In this document: piece by piece, positions 5,239 to 22,239 of the stretch
Layout of the letters: every line of letters begins with the position of its first letter
Numbering within the stretch: position 1 is the first letter of the stretch
Assembly (NCBI GenBank): GCA_018262985.1
Contig: JADFDI010000004.1
Location: 186,001 to 250,000, forward strand
From: Spirochaetota bacterium
GTDB lineage: Bacteria; Spirochaetota; Spirochaetia; Treponematales; UBA12059
DNA: 64,000 bases
Direction: 5' to 3'
Position numbers and translations under genes: made by a program
The notes under the pieces: model-generated
Database searches by the model: none
Told to the model about the DNA's origin: nothing
The model's input: the letters and a program-made list of their open reading frames with translations, nothing else

Positions 5239-5330
5239 CGCGAGGGACGGAGCTGCGACTGAACGACGCCGAAGGACCGAACAGTTCGACGTCGAGGTGT
5301 TCCGTCCCTCGGCGCCGAGGTCTATCCCCG

Positions 5331-5456
5331 GGGTCTGTCCCCTGGGGTCTGTCCCCCGGGGTCTGTCCCTCGGGGTCTGTCCCCTGGGGTCTGTCCCCTG
5401 GGGTCTGTCCCCTGGGGTCTGTCCCTCGGGGTCTGTCCCTCGGGGTCTGTCCCTCG
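5331..5456. repeat. 14-bp tandem repeat, nine copies
   Basis: Nine head-to-tail copies of a 14-base unit, GGGTCTGTCCC plus CTG, CCG or TCG, with a degenerate tenth at 5317-5330. Each unit contains GGGTCTGTCCC, whose complement GGGACAGACCC also occurs at 27811 and as GGGGACAGAGCTC at 4245 and 27832. It fills the gap between the regulator and the convergent VOC gene and could form many alternative hairpins. Confidence 0.9.
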
Positions 5457-5461
5457 GGACT

Positions 5462-6346
5462 TCAGTCGCCGCGCCAGGCGCGCTCGAGCGCTGCGAGGTC
5501 GAATTTCTTCATTTGCAGGAAGGCTTCGACCACGCGAGCGCGGCGCGCCGGGTCCGGATCGACCATCATGGCGTCCATGGCGGTCGGGACGATCTGCCAC
5601 GAGAGTCCGTAGCGGTCCTTGAGCCAGCCGCACTGCTCGGCCTCCGGCACGGCGGAGAGCGCCTCCCAGGAGCGGTCGAGCTCGGCCTGGTCCTCGCAGT
5701 ACAGCATGAACGAGACGGCCTCGTTGAAGCCGAAGCCGTGCGCGTACCCCGAGTCCATGGCGGCGAGGGGGATGCCGCCGAGCTCGAAAGCGGCGTGCAT
5801 GACGGTCCCCGGCTTGTCGTACGGCGCGCCTTCCTCCCAACGGGCTATCGTCCCGACGGAGGAGCCGGGGACGAGCGCGGACCAGAAGCGCAGGGCCTCT
5901 TCCGCCTTCCCGGCGTTCGTCCCGGTGAACATCAGGGTGGGGACGATCTTCCGGCCGGGGGCGGCCGGCCCCGTCGCGGAGAGCTGCCACGAAAGGCCGT
6001 AGCGGTCCTCGATCCAGGCGTAGCGCGGGCTGAAGGGATACTCGCCGAGCTCCATGAGGTCGGCGCCGCCGGGGCGGAGGGCGGCGTGCAGACGGTCGAC
6101 CTCGGCGGCGTCCGCGCAGTTCACCGTGAACGAGGCCGAGGGCGTGAAGCGGAAGTACGGCCCCGCGGAGATCATCCGGATTTCGGTGCCCGCGAGCTCG
6201 ATGGCGATCGTCTCGGCGTCGCCAGAGGGCGTGCCTTCGATGACCGCGCGGTTCAGGATACGCGAGCCCTCGAAGGCCGAGACGTAGAGCTCCGCGGCCT
6301 CGCCCGCTTCCTTGTCGTACCAGAGATGGGGAACGATCTTCCGCAC
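5462..6346 (-). CDS. VOC-superfamily protein with two PhnB-like domains
   Basis: A 294-residue protein made of two tandem PhnB/3-demethylubiquinone-methyltransferase-like VOC modules. The first starts MRKIVPHLWYDKEAGEAAEL and the second KIVPTLMFTGTNAGKAEEAL; each ends with DRYGLSWQ. These proteins form beta-alpha-beta-beta-beta metal-binding cups, but many, including this type, have no known substrate. It is transcribed alone towards the 14-bp repeat. Upstream is a near-perfect palindrome that overlaps its likely promoter. Confidence 0.82.
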   Translation of the reverse strand: MRKIVPHLWYDKEAGEAAELYVSAFEGSRILNRAVIEGTPSGDAETIAIELAGTEIRMISAGPYFRFTPSASFTVNCADAAEVDRLHAALRPGGADLMELGEYPFSPRYAWIEDRYGLSWQLSATGPAAPGRKIVPTLMFTGTNAGKAEEALRFWSALVPGSSVGTIARWEEGAPYDKPGTVMHAAFELGGIPLAAMDSGYAHGFGFNEAVSFMLYCEDQAELDRSWEALSAVPEAEQCGWLKDRYGLSWQIVPTAMDAMMVDPDPARRARVVEAFLQMKKFDLAALERAWRGD

Positions 6347-17438: not shown

Positions 17439-17627
17439 ATGGCCCGACAGGCGTACCGATGCAAGCATTGCGGCGACGAGAAAGTGCTGGAAGCGGGAAC
17501 CCCGATTCCCGATTGTTGCGGCGAGCGGATGTCACCGATACCGCTCGAGGATTGCACCCACCCCTTCAGCGCCGAAGGCGCCCGCGTATCCACCGTCGAC
17601 GAAGCCTGCGACGAGGGCGTCAGGTAG
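17439..17627 (+). CDS. Small desulforedoxin-like zinc/iron-binding protein
   Basis: A 62-residue protein, ATG 17439 behind AGGAGG. YRCKHCGDEKVLEAG followed by CCGERM is the desulforedoxin/desulfoferrodoxin N-terminal metal site (Cys 9, 12, 28 and 29), which binds one Fe or Zn. The rest is unlike known domains. Its last nine codons including the stop (EACDEGVR) are repeated twice downstream in a 97-bp tandem array. Role unknown; perhaps a small redox protein. Confidence 0.7.
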   Translation: MARQAYRCKHCGDEKVLEAGTPIPDCCGERMSPIPLEDCTHPFSAEGARVSTVDEACDEGVR

Positions 17628-17851
17628 CACCGCCCCTTCGAACGGCAGGGATGGTCGCGGAAGCCAAGGCTTCCGCGCCGCGACGCCCGCGTCGCGCGAA
17701 GCCTGCGACGAGGGAGTCAGGTAGCACCGCTCCTTCGAACGGCAGGGATGATCGCGGAAGCCAAGGCTTCCGCGCCGCGACTCCCGCGTCGCGCGAGGCC
17801 TGCGACGAGGGAGTCAGGTAGCACCGCTCCTTTGAATGGCAGGGATGATGG
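17601..17851 (+). repeat. 97-bp tandem repeats carrying copies of the upstream gene's last codons
   Basis: Units begin at 17601, 17698 and 17795, exactly 97 bases apart; the third is partial and runs into a terminator hairpin. Each starts with the reading frame EACDEGVR-stop (27 bases), differing only at synonymous third positions (GGC/GGA, GAA/GAG). The rest of each unit has hairpins at 17658-17677 (GCGGAAGCC arms) and GCGACGC/GCGTCGC. The motif GGGATGGTCGCGG or GGGATGATCGCGG precedes the first hairpin. Confidence 0.9.
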
Positions 17852-17898
17852 CGGAAGCCCCGGATTCGAGGAGTCGGACCTCGAACCCGGGGCTTCGC
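17851..17898. terminator. Long hairpin between convergent zinc-ribbon and nifU genes
   Basis: An inverted repeat of about 20 bp with one or two mismatches, arms 17851-17871 and 17879-17898, loop of seven bases (AGTCGGA). It lies between convergent genes, so it probably terminates both. No clear T-run follows on either strand. Confidence 0.6.
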
Positions 17899-17917: not shown

Positions 17918-18145
17918 TCAGAGGGCCTGGTTGACCTCGCTGATCTCGGGAATGACTTTCTTGATGTAGTTCTCGACGCCCTGCTTGAGGGTGAAGGTGG
18001 CCATGGGACAGCTGCCGCAGGCGCCGGTCAGGCGCACCGTGACCTTGCCGCCCTCTTCCAGCGAAACGAATTCGATGTCCCCGCCGTCGGCCTGCAGCGA
18101 GGGGCGGACTTCCTCTATGGCTTTCCGGACGCGTTCTTCCAGCAT
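17918..18145 (-). CDS. NifU-like (C-terminal domain) iron-sulfur scaffold protein
   Basis: A 75-residue stand-alone NifU C-terminal domain: RPSLQADGGDIEFVSLEE and the cluster-binding CGSCPMATFTLKQGVE (CxxC). It assembles or carries a 4Fe-4S cluster for delivery to apoproteins. ATG 18145 has AGAGG upstream and gives the usual start; a longer in-frame version to 18187 lacks support. It shares a 148-base divergent promoter region with parA. Confidence 0.9.
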   Translation of the reverse strand: MLEERVRKAIEEVRPSLQADGGDIEFVSLEEGGKVTVRLTGACGSCPMATFTLKQGVENYIKKVIPEISEVNQAL

Positions 18146-18293
18146 TGGATACCTCTCGAGGGGGAATTTAGCGCCCGCCGCCCGCACGGGTCAAGCGAGG
18201 GTCCGACGCCCGGGCGCTTCGCTCCCCGATCGCTAGCCGCCCGCTTGCCGAGCATGCTAGACTGACGAACCTCCCGAACCGGAAGGACGCTCC

Positions 18294-19996: not shown

Positions 19997-20030
19997 GCGC
20001 CAAAGCGCTCCGCGCCCTGGCGGCGACATG

Positions 20031-20182
20031 CGCGAAGCGGGGCGCGCGAACAGCGCGCCCTCACAAGAAATCGACGAAGCGCATAGCGCTTCGTCGCCGC
20101 GAGGGGCGCGAAGCAGGGCGCGCGAGCAGCGCGCCCTATCGGATAATCGACGAAGGGCGACGCCCTTCGTCGCCGCGAGGGG
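20031..20182. repeat. Two 76-bp tandem repeats with covarying hairpins, parB-eno gap
   Basis: Copies at 20031-20106 and 20107-20182. Each has a hairpin GGGCGCGC/GCGCGCCC and a second hairpin whose stems differ between copies but stay self-complementary: CGAAGCGC/GCGCTTCG in the first, CGAAGGGC/GCCCTTCG in the second. They end in GCGAGGGGC, which pairs with the GCCCCTCGC just downstream. This fills most of the 290-base gap between parB and the eno promoter. Confidence 0.85.
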
Positions 20183-20201
20183 CGCTTCGCGCCCCTCGCG
20201 C

Positions 20202-21895
<1,694 letters not shown>

Positions 21896-21896
21896 C

Positions 21897-21927
21897 GGCC
21901 GCCCTTTCGGGGGCGGCCCCTTTTTTT
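21897..21927 (+). terminator. Intrinsic terminator of eno
   Basis: GGCCGCCC, loop TTTC, GGGGGCGGCC, followed at once by seven to eight T residues. It is the best Rho-independent terminator in the window. It lies about 310 bases after the eno stop codon, so the duplicated gene ends would be transcribed as part of the eno mRNA. Confidence 0.88.
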
Positions 21928-21960
21928 ACCGGATCCGGGCGTCTCCCTCGCGCGCCAGGG

Positions 21961-22149
21961 ATGAGGCGGTCGCGGTCCGCGACCACTACAATCCTTTCCT
22001 TACCGAAAGCGCGCGAAGCGCGCATGAGGCGGTCGCGATCCGCGACCACTACAATCCTTTCCTTACCGAAAGCGCGCGAAGCGCGCATGAGGCGGTCGCG
22101 GTCCGCGACCACTACAATCCTTTCCCTACCGAAAGCGCGCGAAGCGCGC
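21961..22149. repeat. 63-bp tandem repeat, three copies
   Basis: Copies start at 21961, 22024 and 22087, almost identical. Each contains two short hairpins, GGTCGCG/CGCGACC and GCGCGC-GAA-GCGCGC, joined by a unique stretch with ACTACAATCC. Because 63 is divisible by three, the minus strand stays open across the array, but the reading frame shows no sign of being a gene. Confidence 0.9.
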
Positions 22150-22239
22150 ATGGCGTGCCACGCGATGCCCCGACCGGAGCTCGGGTACGTCATGGATGAC
22201 GACGATGCGATCGTTGACGCGAATTCCTCTGGGCTCCCG

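Follow-up and report, generated by a model that had tools for sequence, protein, structure and literature searches.

Duplicated gene ends separated by hairpins recur in a family of spirochaetes

Why should the last codons of a short gene be repeated behind its own stop codon? The question is raised by a stretch of 64,000 nucleotides (nt) from a spirochaete genome (positions 186001-250000 of contig C17 in genome G000, which totals 3.44 Mb on 22 contigs), called 'the window' below. In it, a gene for a zinc-ribbon protein is followed by two more copies of its nine-codon tail, each preceded by hairpins. The original prediction had seen in this array, and in a similar one at the enolase gene eno, the trace of a process rather than an accident. 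This claim is supported: further genes were found with the same anatomy, and the controls yielded none. The observation is real, and the pattern recurs beyond one locus. It points to a recurring, apparently undescribed way of adding, replacing and keeping gene ends in a little-studied group of spirochaetes; literature searches, restricted to open-access papers, turned up no earlier account of this pattern.

Tail copies in seven genes and three genera

A scan for tail copies was carried out in which the last ten codons and the stop of all coding-like open reading frames (ORFs) were searched in the 700 nt downstream, a match being retained when at least 8 of 11 residues were identical; mid-gene and upstream segments served as controls. 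It covered about 35% of G000 (1.19 Mb) and 0.32 Mb of G001, a genome of the same genus, together with other relatives that were read in part, among them G010 (another genus, g9) and G013 (a third genus). These relatives are mostly metagenome-assembled genomes (MAGs), and some arrays lie at contig ends. The nearest named relatives of the eno gene come from Spirochaetota, Spirochaetaceae and Treponema MAGs and from Rectinema.

The prediction had proposed such a search, and further cases were indeed returned. Tail copies are present in seven genes (the zinc-ribbon gene, eno, flgN, an ABC-F ATPase gene, lepA, aspS and deoC), distributed over four genomes and three genera. G000 contributes eno, flgN and the ABC-F gene, plus the zinc-ribbon gene, whose length did not suffice for the codon filter of the scan and which was picked up separately; G001 contributes eno, ABC-F, lepA and aspS; in the other genera, copies follow the zinc-ribbon gene of G010 and eno of G013. 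Both kinds of control gave zero matches in every set, and no case was found in 0.83 Mb scanned from other bacteria outside the family. A bias of ascertainment through the peptide could be rejected, as a peptide-blind scan on DNA alone returned the same genes and added deoC, where a contig ends within the copy. FlgN, ABC-F, LepA, aspartyl-tRNA synthetase and DeoC were all confirmed by Pfam. The arrays are absent from many relatives.

Additional candidates at four loci (L119, L187, L114 and L117) were discarded, as they proved to be plain tandem repeats, non-genes, or repeats within other reading frames. At L119, for instance, a 67-nt tandem repeat (5900-6100) creates repeated ORF ends without any gene-tail case.

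If the arrays were artefacts, alternative ends from different strains would have been joined in tandem during metagenome assembly. Most of the relatives are MAGs, and contigs of G001 end inside the lepA, deoC and flgN arrays, which would fit. We nevertheless consider this explanation extremely improbable: G000 and G001 have, independently of each other, the same junctions at eno, ABC-F and flgN, tail copies at eno and at the zinc-ribbon gene are found in other genera, and the junction sequences are specific.

The anatomy is constant from case to case. Head-to-tail units measure 67 to 169 nt across the cases, with a constant length within the two arrays of the window (134/135 nt at eno, 97 nt at the zinc-ribbon gene) and linkers of 28 to 93 nt, and every copy starts at most 5 nt from the last paired base of a strong hairpin, that is, at its 3' foot. 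Arrays serving readthrough or frameshifting would conserve the frame relative to the gene. This is not what is found: unit length modulo 3 is 0, 1 or 2, so that copies lie in different frames, and simple readthrough is excluded because the units do not keep frame.

Silent differences between gene ends and their copies

Over 13 gene/copy pairs, the tails differ by 68 silent and only 10 replacement codons. When the same number of bases was mutated at random, about 61 replacements were expected, with a minimum of 49 in 2000 runs; even when only half of the changes were placed on a neutral copy, 35 were expected and the minimum was 23. The two rates, whose equality would have spoken against the prediction, are thus far apart. 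Single cases tell the same story, with silent to replacement counts of 7/0 for eno in G001, 8/1 for flgN in G000 and 9/1 for eno in G013.

This bears on the simplest possibility, namely that gene ends at hairpins were duplicated in tandem in the ordinary, neutral way and mean nothing more. Hairpins and REP-like repeats (after repetitive extragenic palindromes, REP) are abundant here, and the lepA and zinc-ribbon arrays do look like recent plain tandem duplications. Against it stands the count of 10 replacements where some 61 are expected, and the case of flgN, where new and old tails differ at 9 of 12 codons and the preceding 50 nt are nearly identical. Neutral duplication is contradicted for eno, flgN and aspS, and lepA and the zinc-ribbon array may fit it; as a general account we hold it to be very improbable.

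Codon usage adds to the picture. Relative to the gene body, the tail codons carried by the gene are poor in eno, flgN, ABC-F and aspS, at about the 4th to 10th percentile of ordinary genes, and for aspS it is the displaced copy that is well adapted. Among 98 orthologue pairs, eno and flgN showed the two strongest excesses of tail divergence. A general hypermutability of gene ends was rejected, the mean silent profile over these pairs being flat.

Repetition of a gene's 3' end downstream is also a feature of diversity-generating retroelements. There, however, replacements are adenine-specific, whereas the changes seen here are silent and affect all bases; this candidate was rejected on the mutation pattern, no search for a reverse transcriptase or other components having been made.

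The two arrays of the window

Coordinates of both arrays are collected in Table 1. In the zinc-ribbon array, GAAGCCTGCGACGAGGGCGTCAGGTAG, encoding EACDEGVR and the stop, recurs in frames 2, 0 and 1, and the synonymous character of all changes was confirmed. The 97-bp period also holds, with exact spacing: Tandem Repeats Finder and a repeat finder both report an array at 17600-17859, of 2.7 copies with 95% matches, full-unit identity being 100/96/74%. The linkers fold into stacked hairpins, as had been claimed (linker 1, -38.5 kcal/mol, z -3.4; whole region, z -6.8). The gene, which had been read as a desulforedoxin-like zinc ribbon, matches the family Desulfoferrod_N. The claim that the array ends at a terminator was not borne out: no canonical terminator was found there, and the last hairpin, which is shared with a convergent NifU-like gene (17918-18187, minus strand), has no T-run.

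The codon differences at this locus (1 and 2, all silent; P = 0.22 and 0.05) are too few to be significant alone, and the locus says little about selection. The array is the youngest and least informative case.

Table 1. Features of the two tail arrays and of the adjacent REP-like repeat (positions in the window)
Feature	Position	Strand	Evidence
Zinc-ribbon gene, Desulfoferrod_N-like, 62 aa from ATG 17439	17439..17627	+	Pfam PF06397, E=1.2e-6; orthologues in genus and family
Functional tail of zinc-ribbon gene, EACDEGVR-stop	17601..17627	+	
Zinc-ribbon linker 1, three stacked hairpins including GGGATGGTCGCGG; end of 3' arm adjoins copy 2	17628..17696	+	
Zinc-ribbon displaced tail copy 2, one silent difference	17698..17724	+	
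Zinc-ribbon linker 2, hairpins	17725..17793	+	
Zinc-ribbon displaced tail copy 3, two silent differences	17795..17821	+	
Long last hairpin GAAGCCCCGG...CCGGGGCTTC, end of array, without T-run	about 17855..17897	+	Sequence
eno (enolase); functional tail = last 14 codons, 21544-21585	20287..21585	+	
eno linker 1, hairpins A, B and C; compensatory changes between units and genera	21586..21677	+	
eno displaced tail 2	21678..21719	+	
eno linker 2, hairpins A, B and C	21720..21812	+	
eno displaced tail 3, EYAGRTAFYNVRK-stop, most decayed	21813..21854	+	
Untranslated region (UTR) of last eno unit, hairpin and T-run terminator	21855..21935	+	
Three tandem 63-bp copies of dispersed REP-like element	21961..22152	-	

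The eno case (20287-21854) was likewise confirmed as real, and it is far more informative. The compensatory changes in the three hairpins of its linker extend across units and to a second genus. In G010, a T-run follows the third hairpin, and this combination looks like the original eno terminator. The eno linkers are similar to the UTR that is native to eno in another genus; the linker of G013 was found at eno only, and its candidacy as a dispersed repeat was rejected. Within each genome the eno copies agree in peptide and differ in silent codons (PGM...KK for G001; for G000, AG...VHK in the gene's own tail and in tail 2). No ectopic eno tail that could have served as a source was found in the same genome.

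Two side observations concern eno in relatives. In G010 and G015, which belong to the same genus (loci L108 and L104), the gene is single-copy with different 3' UTRs and downstream genes; there are six silent changes in the tail, and the body is 96.5% identical. In 8 of the 23 family genomes (for example G002, G004, G007 and G017), some of them more than 90% complete, eno was not found, perhaps as a result of assemblies breaking at a highly conserved gene.

The REP-like element next to the eno array has the consensus (C)TTTCGG(N)AAGGAA(N)GGATTGTAGTG, a hairpin, and then GACCTCAT, with 11 matches in G000 and 18 in G001. It forms the flgN linker (contig C10) and occurs within the aspS array of G001. 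A dispersed palindrome is present in the flgN and aspS linkers; the zinc-ribbon unit matched itself and otherwise gave only short, weak hits. REP sequences and bacterial interspersed mosaic elements (BIMEs), with their REP-associated tyrosine transposases (RAYTs, Y1_Tnp), are comparable in that hairpins are dispersed beside stop codons, and six Y1_Tnp genes are present in the genome. They differ in that the zinc-ribbon, eno and ABC-F linkers are gene-specific hairpins that form no dispersed family, and tail duplication is absent from the REP features described in the source consulted. Among Rfam families, only tRNA was found.

Two other repeats of the window were recorded. Right behind parB lies a 76-bp tandem repeat of hairpins (20030-20185), and the ATCGACGAAGC...GCTTCGTCG hairpin behind this gene resembles the hairpins behind the zinc-ribbon gene of G015 (L090). 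A 14-bp repeat, CCGGGGTCTGTCCC, is present in ten copies at 5315-5458.

Former gene ends and the addition of units

For two genes, relatives indicate which tail is the older. At flgN, the UTR behind the displaced tail of G000 aligns with the UTR situated at the gene in G002 and G001 (78 and 44, against shuffled maxima of 15 and 13), and neither is matched by the UTR that the G000 gene has today. In genus g9, the displaced zinc-ribbon copy of G010 carries the UTR of the single copy of G015 (64, shuffled maximum 10). The displaced copy is in both genes the orthologue of an old gene end; because its UTR matches gene-end UTRs of relatives, it is, judging from these alignments, the end that used to be functional, the tail now carried by the gene being the newer one. 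Between G000 and G002, silent divergence of flgN affects 15 of 146 codons in the body and 9 of 12 in the tail; between G001 and G002, which both carry the old tail, it affects 4 of 12. Units are sorted differently between genomes, the order being Y-X in G000, X-Y in G001 and X alone in G002. Decay is strongest in the copies that lie farthest from the gene, as in eno tail 3 and in aspS copy 3, whose end is missing.

The reading that we favour, with a confidence evenly balanced between belief and doubt, is a stacking of gene-end units, each consisting of the last 8 to 30 codons, the stop and a hairpin-rich 3' UTR. A new unit would enter behind the gene body and ahead of the old tail, so that the end in use until then would be displaced downstream and persist as a fossil. 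Hairpins at the gene end would promote both addition and loss of units: from the 3' foot of a hairpin, either a terminator or a REP-like one, a polymerase or strand exchange would switch back to a site lying a few codons short of the stop, through template switching associated with the hairpin or through unequal exchange. In an existing array, the direct repeats around hairpins would make unequal exchange, partial conversion and the loss of units more likely, including between strains. Displaced tails would then look protein-coding because they were recently a functional end, or become the gene end again upon loss of a unit. The sequences show the units, their junctions at hairpins, the silent bias, the polarity of old and new ends in two genes and the sorting of units between genomes; from these we infer the template-switch step, an inter-strain source for the silently different new tail, recurrent reuse, and the rates of these events.

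Precedent exists for the instability. In bacteria, excision is highly frequent for inverted repeats that have direct repeats of about 25 bp on either side (PMC5576700), so that arrays of this kind should be labile. Palindrome-stimulated slippage, as in precise excision or in DIRex/MIRAGE constructs, shares with our arrays the inverted repeats between short direct repeats, the expected instability, and the loss of one repeat together with the hairpin. Here, in contrast, the direct repeats are coding tails of various native genes, and the arrays persist, gain units and diverge silently.

Several observations weigh against stacking as we describe it. At flgN and aspS, the duplicated stretch begins with about 35 to 50 nearly identical nt, followed by 7 to 12 recoded codons, so that anything foreign would have to start within the tail itself; this core repeat with divergent ends is absent in eno and the zinc-ribbon array. 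At eno of G013, the two units have hairpins that are almost the same over 53 nt, and their tails show 12 differences in 39 nt. The peptide agreement of the eno copies within each genome is not predicted by pure import. No source of the new tails came to light, and comparison of eno tails with known relatives gave no match above chance except weak hits. Finally, even relatives with a single copy show more variation in the eno tail than in the body, which weakens tail divergence as a proof by itself, and part of the contrast is due to the codon-bias constraint on the body.

A rival reading is that displaced tails are in use. Slippage or deletion across the hairpin stack in DNA, or a polymerase or ribosome skipping the hairpins, would join the gene body to tail 2 so often that this tail has to retain the right peptide, and it would act as a spare end. 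The shortage of replacements relative to the half-neutral expectation, the peptide agreement of the eno copies and the hairpins kept by compensatory changes all argue for it, as does an anatomy known to be highly unstable. On the other hand, frames are not kept, many relatives do without arrays, the oldest copies do decay, and two genes have a displaced copy that formed the gene end until recently, so that the bias needs no present use to be explained. We regard use of the displaced tails as unlikely.

Mobile elements that target gene 3' ends would be yet another source of tails. LepA and an aminoacyl-tRNA synthetase are housekeeping genes of the kind used by such elements. The arrays would be remnants of elements that supplied a silently different rescue tail, like integrase elements, with a core repeat that is almost identical, the recoded tail towards the element and the old tail beyond it. 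The near-identical direct repeat of flgN and aspS, followed by divergent ends encoding the same peptide, is what one would expect, and the gene-borne tails are poorly codon-adapted. Integrative elements, of which SGI1 at trmE is an example (PMC8409611), resemble our arrays in supplying a replacement end, displacing the old one and leaving a direct repeat at the boundary. They differ in that our arrays have no integrase and no cargo, only linkers with hairpins, and affect many unrelated genes, so that each of the seven would need its own element. Within 20-kb stretches, no full-size element, no recombinase-bearing element between copies and no distant tail copy was found; viral, phage and plasmid collections yielded nothing; and the eno linkers are like a native UTR. 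An origin in mobile elements therefore seems quite improbable.

Beyond the stacking of units, one may imagine a dedicated process of this spirochaete family, which would time and again install silently recoded ends with new hairpin 3' UTRs and keep displaced ends as working spares. We find this doubtful. If it were true, gene ends would be exchangeable cassettes under protein-level selection although lying outside the gene. If units are stacked as proposed, gene ends in some bacteria would be modular, turning over by addition of units and leaving a readable record of former ends. This would account for C-terminal codons that are suddenly recoded, silently, between closely related species, and the arrays would allow slippage driven by hairpins to be measured at gene ends in a natural setting. 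They would also call for caution where a short, conserved piece of an ORF lies behind a gene, since it may be a former end or a spare one.
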